From Candidatus Jettenia caeni (GTDB taxonomy: Bacteria > Planctomycetota > Brocadiia > Brocadiales > Brocadiaceae): DNA of 64,000 nucleotides. Positions 49,635-56,312 of this stretch are shown piece after piece (within the stretch, counting starts at the first letter, position 1; every line of letters begins with the position of its first letter). The DNA is taken from contig BAFH01000002.1 in the NCBI GenBank assembly GCA_000296795.1, positions 1 to 64,000 on the forward strand, read 5' to 3'. The notes beneath the pieces were generated by a model. The model had not been told where the DNA came from. It made no database searches and saw nothing but the letters and a program-made list of their open reading frames with translations. Made by a program: the position numbers and the translations under genes.

Positions 49635-49657
49635 TCATGCCGTACTTACGCAGTACC
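49635..49657 (+). repeat. Left imperfect 23-base repeat overlapping the int 3' end
   Basis: It matches 57281-57303 at 20 of 23 positions, sharing TCATG, CGTACTTACG and GTACC. The repeat includes the int stop codon. It could be an integrase arm-binding site or the true att core. Confidence 0.45.
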
Positions 49658-50815
49658 TTTTTTAGCGGCTAACGGTAAAACCTTCTCTTTGCTCATATCC
49701 ATGATATGATCTGTTATCCTCTCTATAGTATTTCTCTTTGCATCTAATTGGCTATGACTATACCGCATGGTCATACCCACGTCTGAATGGCCTAATAGCT
49801 CTTTGGTGGTAACAATGTCTGAACCTGTATTGCTGGATATTGAGGCAAAGCAATGTCTCAGGCTATGGAATGAGAAGTTATTAATCCCGATACTCTTAAA
49901 TAGTTTATTGAAATGCTGGCTATGTGAGGCCGCAACTACCCTTGTTATATCCCTATCCTCAAAGACATTCTCGCCGCATTGGGATTGCTTGTAGGCTTGC
50001 AGCTCTGTTGCCAGAAAGCTTGATAGTGGAATAGTAACAAGCTTACCCGTTTTGCTCTGTACGAATGTTGTTAGGCCTTTAGGGAAGTCAATATCAGACC
50101 ACTTAAGACGTAAAACTTCACCTAGACGCATACCAGTAAACAGACTAGCCAATACCATTAGGCGATCTTTACCCGTTAGCCGATCAAAGATTAAGCCAAC
50201 TTCAACACCTGACAGTATACGATCTCTTTGCTGTGTGACCTTAAACCGTTTTACCTCTTTGCATGGGTTTCGATCTATCAAGCCTGCTTTGATTGCGGTA
50301 TTAAGGATATGAGTAAGGATAATAACATCTAGATTAATGCTGGATTCCTTAACACCATCTAGCTTTTTACGGTCAATCCTGTACTTTTCAATGATAAATG
50401 GTGTGATCTTATCAAGCCTGTGTTCTCCTATATGCCGAACAATGGCATTTACTGACGTTCTCTTTGATACAAGGGTATTCTCTTTAGCTGTCTTGTGTAA
50501 CTCCAGGTAAATCTTGCAATAGTCTGCTAGTGTAGGTATGGCTTTCTTCTTGGGTAAGTTCAATTGACCTCTTTCCCGATCTTAGATAAACAAGGTAAGC
50601 CGCTTTTCTGCATCTGTTTTATTCCGTATATCCTTGAAGGTAAGAGATTGCCATTCCTTATTATCATCAAAGAATTCAATACACCAAGTCCCGCATGTCT
50701 TATATTGACCATTTGACCTCTTTGGCCGATCACCTGGACAATAGCTCTTGCCTGGTCTACCATTGCATGGGATAGCCTTACATTGCTGGAAATACTTCCG
50801 ATACCTAACCGCCAT
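49646..50815 (-). pseudogene. int: Tyrosine integrase interrupted by one in-frame stop codon
   Basis: The C-terminal 305 codons (49646-50563) encode a tyrosine recombinase catalytic domain with Arg in GMRLGEVLRLKWSD, HSLRHCFAS, and GHSDVGMTMRYSH with the nucleophile Tyr. The N-terminal arm-binding and core-binding part lies directly upstream in the same frame (50582-50815; phrases TWCIEFFDDNKEWQSLTF and DAEKRLTLFI). A TAA at 50584-50582 is the only break between them. The joined length of about 390 residues is normal for the family. A TTG near 50563 could restart translation, but that product would lack the arm-binding domain. Confidence 0.8.
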
Positions 50816-50848
50816 AGACTTATTCACCATCCTTTTCTAAACACAAAA

Positions 50849-51379: not shown

Positions 51380-51473
51380 TATGGCTATATTTTTTATGAT
51401 ACTTTCTATTATCGCTTTCATAGGTCTTATTTATACCTATTACACCCAGAAGCATTCAAAGAAACCGTCTTGA
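51372..51473 (+). CDS. Small single-helix membrane protein (33 aa)
   Basis: The ORF begins at an ATG inside the end of the upstream gene (8-base overlap). It encodes one membrane helix (IFFMILSIIAFIGLIY) with a short Lys-rich tail (HSKKPS). The coupling by overlap supports translation. Its 3' end overlaps the 3' end of the convergent Dam gene by about 34 bases. No family is recognised. Confidence 0.5.
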   Translation: MSDMAIFFMILSIIAFIGLIYTYYTQKHSKKPS

Positions 51474-52322
51474 TTACATTGACCATCAAATAAACTCTTT
51501 GGTTTATGTTCAGGTGGAAAGTTACAATACAAAACCTCTATAGTCTTTGGCTTTTCCTCATGGCCTTCCGATTTATGCGAACCCTTGAAGGATTGAAACT
51601 CATACCGATACCAGCCTTTGTATAGCTCGTCATATAAGCCATTCTGATAGTGTGTGACCATTACATGACCTTTTGATATTATGGAGCAATTCCGAAAGCC
51701 TGTAATGGTCATCCTGGGTAAAATTTTCCTTGCCGTAATAGCTTCCTGCACCCAAATAGGGGGGATCAATGAAGAAAAGCGTATCTTCGCTATCATACCT
51801 CTGGATACATTCGGCAAATGGTAAATTCTCGATACAGACATTGCGTAACCTGCCTGCTACCATCTCAAGACTATCAATAACATTCCGGAAGCTCTGCACT
51901 GGATTTCTACCGGTAACAGAAGGGACAGCAAAGCCGCCTCTCAACATATCACCGGAAAAGCATGTCCGATTAAGATAGAACCATTGGCAGGCCTGCTCTA
52001 TCGGATCACCTGAAATATTACCCTCTTTCCACCTGGAGCGTATCTCCTGCCACAACTGCCGTGAGTATGGCATGTATTGAAGTGTTTCGATAAGCCGTTG
52101 TCTCTTCTCCTGGTTTTTGATCACCTGGAAGAAGTTAATCAGGCAATTATCGATATCATTTAAGACTTCTACCTTGCTAGGTGGCTTGCCAAACAGGACA
52201 TGTCCAGCACCGGCAAAGACCTCACAGTAAAGGGTATGCTGTGGTATGTGCAGGACTAGCCAGTCCTTTAAGAAATACTTGCCGCCAATGCGATTAATTG
52301 GACTCTTAAAACCTATGCTCAT
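51440..52322 (-). pseudogene. Dam-type DNA adenine methylase with one-base frameshift
   Basis: The N-terminal 230 residues encode a D12-class adenine methylase: SPINRIGGKYFLKDWL, EVFAGAGHVLFGKP, VLNDIDNCLINFF and the catalytic FIDPPYLGAG. The frame stops near 51630, but the next frame continues with family sequence (GHVMVTHYQNGLYDELYKGW, PKTIEVLYCNF) to 51440. One base too many in the TTTT run at 51671-51674 explains it. The frame opens at 52340, inside a palindrome; the internal ATG at 52322 is the better start. Either the gene is dead or the assembly has a homopolymer error. Confidence 0.8.
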
Positions 52323-52331
52323 AGTATTATA

Positions 52332-52455
52332 GGGTATCATTAGTAATGATACCCTTGTATCTCCTGTCTTTTCAAAAGGATACGAATCCGATTCGTACCC
52401 TTACAAGGATAGTAAACGGATTACTACCCTTCATGGTGTCGGTTAAAGCTACACC
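52332..52455 (-). repeat. Array of three (perhaps four) hairpins with invariant outer and covarying inner stems
   Basis: Three 23-base units lie at 52332-52354, 52378-52400 and 52407-52429. On the plus strand each is GGRTA-N13-TACCC. Outer bases are constant; inner arms are TCAT/ATGA, CGAA/TTCG and GTAA/TTAC, all self-complementary. Read on the minus strand, the direction of the operon, the third outer pair is G-U or G-C. A degenerate fourth unit (GGTGT...ACACC) is at 52435-52455. All four end in ACCCTT. They lie between xis and the methylase. Confidence 0.7.
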
Positions 52456-52460
52456 CTTTG

Positions 52461-52655
52461 TTATCCTTGAGCATTCTTATCAATCCAAACATCCAAGTCT
52501 TGTTTGCGAAATCGATTTAATTTTCCGATTTTTACAAAGGGGATTTCCTTCCGCATTGTAATGGCGTAAAGTGTTGCAAGCTTTATGTTTATATAAGCCG
52601 CAGTTTGATTCATGTCCATTAGTCCGTTGGTAATCTCAATTGTTTTTAATTCCAT
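52461..52655 (-). CDS. xis: Excisionase-family helix-turn-helix protein
   Basis: The 64-residue protein matches the short MerR-like excisionase fold: MNQTAAYINIKLATLYAI (helix-turn-helix), then the wing IPFVKIGKLNRFRKQDLDVW. Such proteins bend att DNA and steer the integrase toward excision; AlpA-type members also activate transcription. AGGAGAAT precedes the ATG. It is between the replication genes and the methylase/integrase. Confidence 0.85.
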   Translation of the reverse strand: MELKTIEITNGLMDMNQTAAYINIKLATLYAITMRKEIPFVKIGKLNRFRKQDLDVWIDKNAQG

Positions 52656-53135: not shown

Positions 53136-53558
53136 TTATTGAATCTCCAAAATTTCCAAATCGGCCATGTTTGTTAAATCAATAATATCGGTTTCCTGAA
53201 CTGGGTTTTGACTTGGGTTAGCGGTAGTAAGATTTTGAGTTTTCGCATCATCCTTATGGGTGTCTTTGGCAGCTATTTTTTCTTGTTCCTGAGGTAAAGA
53301 TTCTGGTACAAAATTTTTTCCATCTTTTTGGAGGTTTGTAAAATCGTCTGTACCAGAATACGCCCTAGAGACATGCGGGTTTGTGGTCATTTTTGGATTC
53401 TGGTACACTGGTACAGGATATATACTCTGTACCAGAATACTAGAATATAGAAATGGTTTTCCTTTAGCGCCCTGACCATCTCTTTTGACCTTATTTGTTT
53501 TTACCAACTCCCGAAGCGTTTTCTTTTTTAAACTGTTTCCACCTTCAACCTCGTTCAT
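53136..53558 (-). CDS. Hypothetical protein, RepA-operon accessory
   Basis: The 140-residue protein has a Lys-rich N-terminus (LKKKTLRELVKTNKVKRDGQG) that may form a winged helix, then a polar, probably disordered C-terminal part. It overlaps the end of the AAA ATPase gene by 14 bases. It may be a displaced C-terminal domain of a RepA-like helicase, as such ATPases often carry a C-terminal winged helix, but this is inference. Confidence 0.55.
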   Translation of the reverse strand: MNEVEGGNSLKKKTLRELVKTNKVKRDGQGAKGKPFLYSSILVQSIYPVPVYQNPKMTTNPHVSRAYSGTDDFTNLQKDGKNFVPESLPQEQEKIAAKDTHKDDAKTQNLTTANPSQNPVQETDIIDLTNMADLEILEIQ

Positions 53559-54240
53559 TATTATTTGCTCTGTTACTGGCTCGTTTTGTTAAGATTGTCT
53601 CTGGCAGGTCATCCCCATACCGTTGGATAGTTTGCAGTGTCCTGTAATGCTCATGGCGTTTCATAATCATTAGGGTGTCGACAGATCCAAAGATAGCCTG
53701 GCTACCTAAGAAGCTATCTTCTGCACTTGATTCCCCTTTACGTGAATGATGTACACACAAGACGTGTGTTCCTGTATCCCGTGCAAGTCTTAATATCGGC
53801 TCCAAAGCATTCGTAACTTGGTGATAATCGTTCCCATCTTTGACTTTTGTAAATCTGAATAGTGGATCAATTACCAACAATGCAGGCTTTAGTTTCTCAA
53901 CGACACCTTTAATCTGGCTAATGGCATCCGCAGGAGCACCGCCAACATAGATATGAATTTCTTCGTTTCCTGTCGCTCCCATATCCTGGAAGTGCTTTTT
54001 TATCTCAGACCTTTTTTCCTCTAAAGCCAGATAGATAACCACCCCTTTCAGAATCTCTTTATCAAGAAATAATTCACCCGTAGCAACACTTAACGCCAAT
54101 CCTCTGGCAAGGGTAGACTTGCCCACCTTTGGCTTAGCCACAACAATAGAAAATCCACCTGTTGGCAGCAGACCATCAACAAGCCATTGTGTTTGTTCCT
54201 CTGGCTCCTGGAATAGGTCGCTAAGCTTTGTAAATGCCAT
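53545..54240 (-). CDS. RecA/RepA-like AAA ATPase (AAA_25 type), replication helicase
   Basis: The 231-residue protein has Walker A VAKPKVGKSTLARGLA, Walker B LLVIDPLFRF and a sensor motif LCVHHSRKGESS, the hallmarks of plasmid RepA-type hexameric helicases. It overlaps the primase gene by 20 bases, so helicase and primase are made together. This pairing is a typical autonomous replication module of plasmids, phages and satellites. Confidence 0.85.
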   Translation of the reverse strand: MAFTKLSDLFQEPEEQTQWLVDGLLPTGGFSIVVAKPKVGKSTLARGLALSVATGELFLDKEILKGVVIYLALEEKRSEIKKHFQDMGATGNEEIHIYVGGAPADAISQIKGVVEKLKPALLVIDPLFRFTKVKDGNDYHQVTNALEPILRLARDTGTHVLCVHHSRKGESSAEDSFLGSQAIFGSVDTLMIMKRHEHYRTLQTIQRYGDDLPETILTKRASNRANNNERG

Positions 54241-55105
54241 TGAGTTTTTTTCTTTCGAGACCAGCTTCTGTAGTTATCTCTGGTGTCCACGCAGGAGTGC
54301 CCCTAATAAGTTCTATAAGCCTTTCCTTGTTGCTTCCTGGTATCCTCGCCCAATTAATAACGTCCTCAGCCTTTTGGAGATTTGGTAGCTCGACAATCCT
54401 CAACTCTCCCGCCTTACCGTGCAAGGCATTGGCTATCTTGATAGCATATGCTTTGCCTGGTTTATCATTGTCGGGCAAGATAATTATTTTTTTCATCCCT
54501 GATAGTATTTGAACGTGCTCATCCCTGATAGGCGAACTGGCACCTGAGTCAAGACAGGTAGCAGGTAATCCCCAGCTAGTGAGCAAATCGGCTTTGGCCT
54601 CGCCTTCAACGACAATACAAGCCTTCGATCCAACAAGCTCGGGTAATCGGTATAAAACGGGATCACAGCCACGCCAAAACACCCACTTACCATTCTCTAA
54701 GTGTTTGAATATGAACTCTTTAGAATGGCCTTCCCTGCCTGGCTCTATCCTTTCTTTGGTGTAAAGCACCTGGCCGTTAACGTCTTTATACTCAAACTTA
54801 GCTACAACTTTCGGCTTAACGTCTGTATTGGTCATACCTGCCATTTCTCCGATCTCCTTTAAAGCCGTTGGAAAGTCCACGCCTTTCAACTCTTGGAAGA
54901 AGGTGAACACATCGCCCTTAGCGTCACAGGCAAAACACCTGTAAAGCCCTGACTCCACATTAACGCTTAAGCTGGCATTGTGGTCATCATGGAATGGGCA
55001 TAGCCCTAATACCTCTGGCTTGCCGTTGACCTTCAAAGAAGGGATATGGGATTGATAGAAGCTTGCAAAATCAAGACTTTTAAGAATGCGGTCTTTATTA
55101 TTCAT
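54221..55105 (-). CDS. CHC2 zinc finger and Toprim primase of the element
   Basis: The 294-residue primase has a CHC2 zinc site (LCPFHDDHNASLS and RCFACDAKGDVF) and a Toprim domain (CIVVEGEAKADLL, IIILPDNDKPG). It lacks the central RNA-polymerase domain and DnaB-binding domain of chromosomal DnaG (592 residues at 13403-15181). The start is placed at the ATG at 55105, after AAGGGGTGG; the frame opens from 55138. It overlaps the 54-residue upstream gene by 8 bases and the helicase gene by 20 bases. Confidence 0.87.
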   Translation of the reverse strand: MNNKDRILKSLDFASFYQSHIPSLKVNGKPEVLGLCPFHDDHNASLSVNVESGLYRCFACDAKGDVFTFFQELKGVDFPTALKEIGEMAGMTNTDVKPKVVAKFEYKDVNGQVLYTKERIEPGREGHSKEFIFKHLENGKWVFWRGCDPVLYRLPELVGSKACIVVEGEAKADLLTSWGLPATCLDSGASSPIRDEHVQILSGMKKIIILPDNDKPGKAYAIKIANALHGKAGELRIVELPNLQKAEDVINWARIPGSNKERLIELIRGTPAWTPEITTEAGLERKKLNGIYKA

Positions 55106-55262
55106 CGCACCACCCCTTATGTTTGTCTGTAGTCTCAATGATGTAATCTATAGCGTCTACGACAAAAGACCGTTCCTCAGTAAATCCCGCCCGAAGTATT
55201 TTATCCTTAAAACATAAAAGGCACTCTTTGAGCCTTAGCGGTAAGGCTGCTTCATCTATCAT
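55098..55262 (-). CDS. Small hypothetical protein (54 aa) upstream of the primase
   Basis: The ORF starts at the ATG at 55262 after GGAGTGGCA and ends at a TAA that overlaps the primase start by 8 bases. The product is MIDEAALPLRLKECLLCF then a helical segment FTEERSFVVDAIDYII. It is acidic and probably helical. No family recognised. The overlap supports translational coupling with the primase, so it may be a replication accessory. Confidence 0.55.
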   Translation of the reverse strand: MIDEAALPLRLKECLLCFKDKILRAGFTEERSFVVDAIDYIIETTDKHKGWCDE

Positions 55263-55445: not shown

Positions 55446-56219
55446 CTAAGAAAGTAGCATCTTCAATGAATCGTTCTGCCTTTTTGATTCTATTTTTGAT
55501 TTGAAATCGTTCTGAATCCTCTGGAATTGATCTTTATTTACTTCCCGTATTACCTCATGAACATAGAAATCTTTGTCTTTATTCTCTAAGAGATATGCGA
55601 TATACCTAAGTCCAAAACAATCATTAATCTTCGTAAGCTTGCCGTTATATTGAATTGTCCAGTACTCGCCTTCTTTGCGGAATATGTTAATTTCTGGTTC
55701 CTTTATTCCTCGATCTTGTCCGTTGGCTTGTCCCTGCATCTCTGGTTCAAGACTCATTCCGCAATATTCTTCTATGCCTTTTACTAATGCCCTTGCATAG
55801 TCAATTTCTTCTTGCGCATTAATTCCTAGTGTGTTAGTAATAACGGTGTCACTATTAGCCTGCAATGCTATAAATGCATGTCGTATAGCCAGAATTCCTA
55901 GTATATGATAATCTTTAATAGGCTTATCAATTCTCTTCTGGTTTTTCTTTGGTATTAAGTGTATTAGTGTTTTGTTTATCAAAGCCACTTCTAGCAATCG
56001 TAAGCCTTCTGGTGAAAGCGGCTTTGATTCTGCAAAAACATATCTTGTGTTTAACAGTTTCTTGAATAATCGATGTGCTATTCTGTGGAGTTCTGGATTG
56101 AATAAAGTTCTTGCTTTGTGGATTATATCTAAACTTGTCTTTGTTACTTCATTGGTTTGATCTAATAATGCTGGTAATTTGCCATATAACGGACACCACT
56201 TAATATTTACTCGTTCCAT
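55446..56219 (-). CDS. Hypothetical protein with C-terminal KGLRYLA-like wing domain
   Basis: The 257-residue protein has an N-terminal helical part of about 170 residues that I do not recognise. Its C-terminal part contains YWTIQYNGKLTKINDCFGLRYIAYLL. This resembles a short domain (Y.G....l.d..GLRYLA.LL) found at the end of several bacterial regulators. It could be an initiator or regulator that binds the adjacent repeats, as its gene ends 8 bases from the third repeat. That role is inference. AAGGAGTAAT precedes the ATG. Confidence 0.6.
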   Translation of the reverse strand: MERVNIKWCPLYGKLPALLDQTNEVTKTSLDIIHKARTLFNPELHRIAHRLFKKLLNTRYVFAESKPLSPEGLRLLEVALINKTLIHLIPKKNQKRIDKPIKDYHILGILAIRHAFIALQANSDTVITNTLGINAQEEIDYARALVKGIEEYCGMSLEPEMQGQANGQDRGIKEPEINIFRKEGEYWTIQYNGKLTKINDCFGLRYIAYLLENKDKDFYVHEVIREVNKDQFQRIQNDFKSKIESKRQNDSLKMLLS

Positions 56220-56253
56220 ATATTACTCCTTAAGGTAATCCTTAGTAATAAAG

Positions 56254-56312
56254 AATTAAGGACAGGTCATCTAAGGAAATGACTTTTCGCTTCGTCAAGC
56301 TAGTCCTTAATT
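56254..56312 (-). terminator. Stem-loop with nested inner stem, terminator or attenuator
   Basis: AATTAAGGAC (56254-56263) and GTCCTTAATT (56303-56312) form a perfect 10-base stem. An inner GTCAT/ATGAC pair lies inside (56266-56283). On the minus strand a T-rich TTCTTTATT follows. It lies between the 83-residue gene and the 257-residue gene. Confidence 0.55.

Follow-up and report, generated by a model that had tools for sequence, protein, structure and literature searches.

The Rickettsia palindromic elements are short palindromes that lie between genes and also in frame within protein genes, and for these elements, as for the REP, BIME and MITE-like repeats, family membership is read from a sequence that is conserved within a single lineage. 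A different role for a short DNA element is known from prophage BstA, which is switched off by aba DNA inside its own locus; experimental tests established that aba acts as DNA and in an allele-specific manner (PMC8585504). The aba element is 63 bp long, carries terminal direct CCCGCC repeats and overlaps the start of the bstA gene, and the text of that study reports no dyad of the kind described below (PMC8585504). In the mitochondria of Nematomorpha, perfect inverted repeats lie within protein genes, and, according to the abstract, the protein and the palindrome are kept together (PMC6649704). Template switching has been reported both to create and to maintain hairpin stems (PMC8794818).

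The palindromes analysed here lie in the window (the whole 64-kb stretch of DNA that was analysed, part of a 4.09-Mb Brocadiaceae genome), the host of which is very probably an anammox bacterium. They form an array in an integrated element, flanked by an HTH_17 gene on one side and a dam gene on the other, and the array contains no Bro-N gene. The element genes, encoding a tyrosine integrase, a D12 adenine methyltransferase (dam), an HTH_17 protein, a helicase-like protein and a primase, are all on the minus strand (Table 1).

Table 1. Palindromes of the array and surrounding genes of the integrated element, with their positions in the window
Feature	Position	Strand	Description
h1	52330-52356	-	27-mer AAGGGTATCATTACTAATGATACCCTA in dam sense; would read KGIITNDTL
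h2	52376-52402	+	27-mer AAGGATACGAATCCGATTCGTACCCTT; would read KDTNPIRTL
h3	52405-52431	+	27-mer AAGGATAGTAAACGGATTACTACCCTT; would read KDSKRITTL; build as in the other units
h4	52432-52458	-	27-mer AAAGGGTGTAGCTTTAACCGACACCAT in dam sense; begins right after the HTH stop codon
HTH_17 gene (excisionase or AlpA-like)	52461-52655	-	Pfam PF12728, E 4e-10; directly upstream of the array
dam, D12-class adenine methyltransferase	51633-52322	-	Pfam PF02086, E 2e-27; directly downstream of the array
Tyrosine integrase	49646-50563	-	Pfam PF00589, E 2e-26
Helicase-like gene	53545-54240	-	Replication module; Pfam for module PF13481, PF01807, PF13155
CHC2/Toprim primase gene	54221-55138	-	Replication module; Pfam for module PF13481, PF01807, PF13155

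The frame of the window dam gene is broken: in the list of open reading frames, the C-terminal third (HYQNGLYDELYKGW...) goes on in another frame at 51440-51841 on the minus strand, and most dam relatives are a single longer open frame. The break (51440-52340, minus strand) may reflect decay, an assembly error or recoding. The integrase also seems to be split, with the part encoding its N-terminal arm (50582-50830) and the remainder lying in different frames of the minus strand; a relative in L024 appears to run in one frame throughout. Elsewhere in the element, direct and inverted copies of TGTACCAGAAT and ATTCTGGTACA occupy positions 53299-53455, in the region of the ORF at 53136-53558. Related elements have other repeats in the equivalent place (GTACGCTTTT in L063 and ACGTACTA in L023), and the window repeats are possibly element-specific iterons of an origin. 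An int-alpA RNA (Rfam RF02996, 55.6 bits) is found inside the element at 56240-56310 on the minus strand, ~20 nt upstream of the ORF at 55446-56219.

The array comprises three 23-bp palindromes with GGRTA/TACCC ends and different, compensated inner arms, followed by a weaker fourth, with start-to-start spacings of 46, 29 and ~28 bp. Palindrome h1 (52332-52354, GGGTATCATTAGTAATGATACCC) is perfect. In both h2 (52378-52400, GGATACGAATCCGATTCGTACCC) and h3 (52407-52429, GGATAGTAAACGGATTACTACCC), the third pair is A·C on the plus strand or G·U on the minus strand, and the innermost pair of h3 is an A/A mismatch; h4 (52435-52455, GGTGTCGGTTAAAGCTACACC) is the weaker palindrome. The original prediction of a real set, with a constant outer stem, a covarying inner stem and all four units ending in ACCCTT, is borne out at these positions. 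The motif GGRTA-N13-TACCC has five matches in the window versus 0.16 expected from shuffled sequence, with no shuffle reaching five, and four of the five matches (three sites) fall in the array. Among the motif matches listed elsewhere in the 4.09-Mb genome, none has a palindromic inner part like those of the array. On this ground the array was rejected as a genome-wide host repeat, and the same result speaks against such palindromes being scattered at random across the genome.

The minus strand of the array folds with -47.1 kcal/mol (z = -4.6; none of 200 shuffles folded equally well) and the plus strand with z = -3.6. An Rfam scan of the array returned no family at gathering score, none of the four palindromes (0/4) scored as a terminator, and no long T-run follows any of them on either strand, in agreement with the earlier view that no described feature type explains the array. 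A role of the array as a tandem set of terminators or attenuators in the hth-dam spacer seems to us highly improbable: the outer stems are GC-rich, and AAGGG..CCCTT palindromes behind pilin-like genes in relatives do look like ordinary terminators, but the array lacks both terminator scores and T-runs, and exact alleles of its units lie inside open Bro-N frames.

This link to Bro-N antirepressors, which is not visible from the window alone, is provided by a distant BLASTN search in which the array matched antirepressor genes of Paenibacillus phages. Palindrome h4 matches the antirepressor of Paenibacillus phage Tripp (E = 3e-5), which bears a 30-mer of this type, and the h4 27-mer is 26/27 identical to Bro-N segments in L153 and L154. 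The h4 core occurs in five viral contigs and is identical in two of them inside Bro-N genes, where AAG GGT GTA GCT TTA ACC GAC ACC CTT encodes the KGVALTDTL of '(D)EDEKGVxxxDTLGG'. In 2.9 million viral contigs, the 21-bp core of h1 has a single exact match, in frame in a Bro-N gene at the right site; the arms of h2 likewise have one, in an in-frame Bro-N reading KDTNIIRTL, again at the right site.

The relation was also assessed with a covariance model, R1, built solely from Bro-N coding 27-mers. Its best hits in the window are h1 (27.8 bits, E = 2e-5), h2 (E = 2e-5) and h4 (E = 0.0055), with h3 borderline (E = 0.11); h2 and h3 score better in the orientation opposite to h1 and h4. Most of the hairpins from a second genome of the same genus (G001) score better than the window units, with E values from 1e-7 to 4e-6. 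Two extra model hits (G000:C4:306598 and G012:C1:2425197) fall in what appears to be one and the same coding gene, which its residues suggest is a prolyl-tRNA synthetase; they look like chance and were set aside. In a comparison with 60 inner-shuffled palindromes, h1, h4 and most units from G001 and from a genome of another genus (G005) each have a Bro-N allele nearer to them than any shuffled palindrome has. The corresponding count for h2 is 3 of 60, and for h3 and some other units the nearest Bro-N allele is no closer than for shuffled palindromes, h3 having no close allele. In a related element, G005:C45, dam is followed by a Bro-N gene containing the palindrome GATGACGTCGGTTTAACCGACACCATC, which agrees with a non-coding G001 unit, GATGACGTAGCTTTAACCGACACCATC, at 25 of 27 positions.

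Measured against the Bro-N palindrome class, a 27-bp dyad AAGGRTR..YACCCTT with covarying inner arms, h1, h2 and h4 belong and h3 is borderline; these window copies are non-coding rather than in-gene, with only 18 aa of weak Bro-N similarity, around h4. We consider the relation of the array to the Bro-N palindromes strong and very likely to be correct. That the palindromes arose by chance and bear no relation to Bro-N is scarcely credible: such a reading could appeal to h3, which lacks a close Bro-N allele, but it is at odds with the motif excess and the fold relative to shuffles, the R1 hits, the 25/27 match in G005:C45 and the nearest-allele test, and exact in-frame matches of h1, h2 and h4 contradict it.

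In Bro-N genes, which come from phages across phyla, the palindrome occupies one set codon position, after '(D)EDEK' and before 'NESGLY', with constant outer arms and covarying inner arms. A scan of viral contigs with the outer arms alone (AAGGGTGT-N11-ACACCCTT) recovered mostly Bro-N genes, with many different complementary inner arms. The GGRTA/TACCC ends alone were rejected as the mark of a family: AAGGATA-N13-TACCCTT in viral contigs falls mostly in unrelated coding DNA without inner symmetry, the few exceptions including the Bro-N genes L421 and L442. The counts given below for Bro-N genes refer to the matches listed, which are partly biased, and because the genes are related, they are neither independent nor to be read as probabilities. 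In two sets of genes chosen for protein similarity, with no regard to palindromes, the domain's best palindrome is centred 12 aa before the NESGLY anchor in 41/71 and 33/72 genes, and the palindrome score exceeds the mean of synonymous shuffles in 69/71 and 70/72. In a set partly chosen by palindrome, 127 of 153 Bro-N regions have a palindrome score of at least 7, versus 7 of 158 later stretches of the same genes. When right halves are shuffled among genes, pairing drops (pair 10 is 100% observed versus 45% expected), and for 37 distinct Bro-N 27-mers the covariation score is 0.290, versus 0.105 when shuffled and ~0.10 at most when slid.

Codon usage and amino-acid content follow the dyad. The lysine of the motif is encoded by AAG in 49/49 cases, versus 54% elsewhere in the same domains, and the threonine by ACC in 49/49, versus 44%. 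Amino-acid changes track pairing, as in V..D (GTC..GAC), V..Y (GTA..TAC), V..H (GTG..CAC), I..D (ATC..GAT) and R-N..I-P (CGGAAT..ATTCCG), and other Bro-N groups have different outer classes (CTGA..TCAG, GATG..CATC and AAAC..GTTT) with the build unchanged. Genes with flanks that are 75-95% alike can differ wholesale in their palindrome allele. Few Planctomycetota Bro-N genes were recognised by the anchor, and, with the exception of that in G005:C45, the strong palindrome was not seen in them. A like palindrome also occurs in frame in another phage protein family (GKHYVKGVDIFDTL..., in L158 and L203), in which a 60-residue stretch has no Pfam match. A limited literature search, with thin coverage of subscription journals, found no description of the Bro-N palindrome.

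Many Brocadiales elements have HTH_17 next to dam, often with a gap of 2-40 bp or another gene in between, and lack such palindromes. Among the Brocadiales loci compared, palindromes at the hth-dam spacer are confined to the genus of the window, where related spacers have two to five units, versus zero in more than 20 other loci, and no general link of palindromes to the 3' end of HTH_17 genes was seen in those other loci. In G001, the HTH_17 orthologue of which is 87% identical, there are two units at 3152 kb, three at 500 kb and five at 932 kb. In two elements of the other genus (G005), the palindromes, two or three in number, are found instead upstream of the integrase. The earlier expectation that arms would stay complementary in homologous elements fails in part: of the three related elements, that at 932 kb in G001 has h2 and h3 in recognisable but decayed form. 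A search of three genomes of the window's genus (G000-G002) found no Bro-N gene, and a scan of viral contigs with the dam protein gave no match. As side observations, a G001 dam gene (L023 2130-2330) carries an in-frame insert of ~60 residues in mid-methyltransferase with a helix-turn-helix look (SDRQIARELGVSNKTVS), and several Brocadiales elements (L113, L123, L124 and L137) have, ahead of dam, a small cysteine-rich ORF (HCLGCVETRKEVKDCTGKL...) that recalls the Com-type regulators of phage DNA modification.

These comparisons bear on the proposal that hairpins in the hth-dam mRNA control the translation or stability of dam. In the window, h1 lies between a Shine-Dalgarno-like AGGAG (52361-52365) and the dam ATG (52320-52322), where it would fold between the Shine-Dalgarno sequence and the start codon; the G001 orthologue at 3152 kb (GGATGTCATTTCAAATGACACCC) occupies the same place between AGGAG and AUG and keeps its symmetry through two compensated pairs, and the minus-strand RNA folds well. 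However, this orthologue has A·C, and not G·U, in the sense strand, two other G001 elements have no hairpin between the Shine-Dalgarno sequence and the AUG of dam, and most relatives have none before dam. The opposite best orientations of h2/h3 and h1/h4 and the interrupted dam frame of the window also speak against RNA control. Imperfect pairs in 114 unique Bro-N palindromes include 31 G·T and 29 A·C, a lack of strand bias such that nothing points to structure in the sense-strand RNA. We consider control of dam by RNA hairpins improbable, and the hint of selection for RNA structure in the original prediction is not sustained.

The main rival reading is that the palindromes are putative double-stranded DNA sites for a dimeric phage regulator, either the Bro-N protein or the repressor that it antagonises, with a specificity for each allele. 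The site would be embedded in the Bro-N gene itself, and satellites would carry alleles as operators, decoys or marks of self-recognition. The dyad covaries up to the pair beside the centre base (pair 13: AT 24, TA 10), where no hairpin can form, and symmetry of this extent also fits a dimer-binding site, as does the absence of strand bias among mismatches. The arrays adjoin regulator, int or dam genes, and there are precedents in the pairing of a KilA-N-like DNA-binding domain with a cognate DNA element in its own locus, as for BstA and aba (PMC8585504), and in antirepressors, which are reported to be able to work in trans between prophages (PMC3121763). On the other hand, alleles within one array are unlike, the complementarity is fuller than an operator requires, the h2 and h3 copies in G001 are decayed, and the genus, as represented by the three genomes searched, has no Bro-N gene. 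Nor does a phage's own in-gene allele recur in its contig in excess of other alleles, although the contigs are partial, so that a distant second site could be missed. Taken together, these points lead us to regard a regulator-binding site as possible but rather unlikely.

Non-coding arrays of unlike alleles are not restricted to the window. They occur in L152, L204, L216, L326, L486 and two G005 elements, and their settings vary: the array follows a Bro-N gene in L326, lies near a Bro-N fragment in L152 and surrounds an HTH gene in L486. In L204, the last part of an HTH_17-like ORF beside an integrase contains palindromes in frame, and in L275 two stand in tandem, in frame, within one Bro-N gene. 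A non-coding fragment in L407 (Bacillus phage Bp8p-C) reads LDVDEKGVVSTDTL and has a near-identical direct repeat (GGAACCCTTAAAGAAATAGARTAGGA) on its flanks, as an insertion or duplication would leave. A prophage of Ca. Liberibacter has a reported 'CRISPR' of four 22-bp dyad repeats near a Bro-N gene (PMC4711790), which may deserve comparison with the palindrome arrays.

The arrays of unlike alleles near the Bro-N gene of L326 and the Bro-N fragment of L152, together with whole-block allele differences between genes with similar flanks, could indicate a silent cassette bank, in which non-coding palindromes donate to the in-frame Bro-N palindrome and thereby diversify the encoded loop. No direct donor-recipient pair is seen in one genome, however, and the window genome has no Bro-N gene, and we hold this reading to be very improbable. 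A further, speculative reading, which we think unlikely, is that phages and satellites share a code of short allele-specific palindromes. Each Bro-N gene would carry its own, with loop and site swapped together, and satellites such as the window element would hold a few foreign alleles in an array. Such arrays would serve to detect or counteract antirepressors from several phages, or would supply Bro-N genes with new alleles in the manner of a cassette bank.

The array is a set of non-coding alleles of a ~27-bp palindromic DNA module with constant outer arms (AAGGRTR/YACCCTT) and inner arms that vary and are complementary to each other, and the main home of this module is a fixed codon position in phage Bro-N antirepressor genes. 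The analysis shows that the array belongs to the Bro-N palindrome class, that units are gained and lost, that the arms covary and that there is no strand bias. For the mechanism behind them, our preferred explanation is a mobile or recombining palindrome that is kept symmetric by template switching and is under added selection in Bro-N genes, to which we give an even chance. The module would be transferred whole from one Bro-N gene to another and to intergenic sites in phages and satellites, with gains and losses within a few species. Complementarity of the arms would be enforced at the DNA level, one arm being copied from the other by template switching, and in Bro-N genes selection for the palindrome probably adds to the symmetry. 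In this locus, the module may have accumulated between hth and dam, a spacer that in relatives is often only 2-40 bp, and any effect on dam expression would be secondary.

Mobility is suggested by the allele blocks that differ between genes with similar flanks, by the tandem in-frame pair in L275 and by the variation in unit number between related spacers. No transposase or other mover of the module was identified, the window shows no target-site duplication, and the lack of a near Bro-N allele for h3 counts against the preferred explanation. The constancy of the AAG and ACC codons across distant phages suggests selection in Bro-N genes, since pure mobility does not explain it.

If a mobile module under such selection is the correct explanation, the genes of a common phage regulator family have a hypervariable palindrome at a fixed coding point, and codon choice, and even amino acids, follow base pairing rather than the needs of the protein. 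The variability of that Bro-N loop would be explained, the palindrome would provide a marker for exchange between unrelated phages, and recognition of its own gene by an antirepressor would become directly testable. The array also illustrates that perfect covariation is here no proof of RNA structure.

Several known systems share single traits with the array. Like a CRISPR, it is a repeat array, but its inner arms vary between units, with no near-identical repeats and no identical repeats at regular spacers; like integron attC sites, it is built of palindromic units with a constant outer part, but it lacks attC core sequences. In contrast to aba, the array has no CCCGCC, and no bstA-like gene was recognised among the ORFs of the element. 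The Nematomorpha palindromes, at up to 284 bp, exceed those described here in length and occur in conserved genes of the mitochondrion, and the abstract of that study mentions no non-coding arrays of alleles (PMC6649704). Template switching accounts for changes that alter both arms as a block and compensate each other, with no need for selection on pairing (PMC8794818), but it is a mutational mechanism and not an element, and alone it leaves the fixed position and the AAG/ACC constancy unexplained. The Rickettsia palindromic elements are alike in that the Bro-N class also has in-frame and intergenic copies (tandem and in frame in L275 and L204, non-coding elsewhere). Compared with these elements and with the REP, BIME and MITE-like repeats, the Bro-N class is set apart by its hypervariable arms, its fixed in-gene position and its distribution in hosts across phyla.
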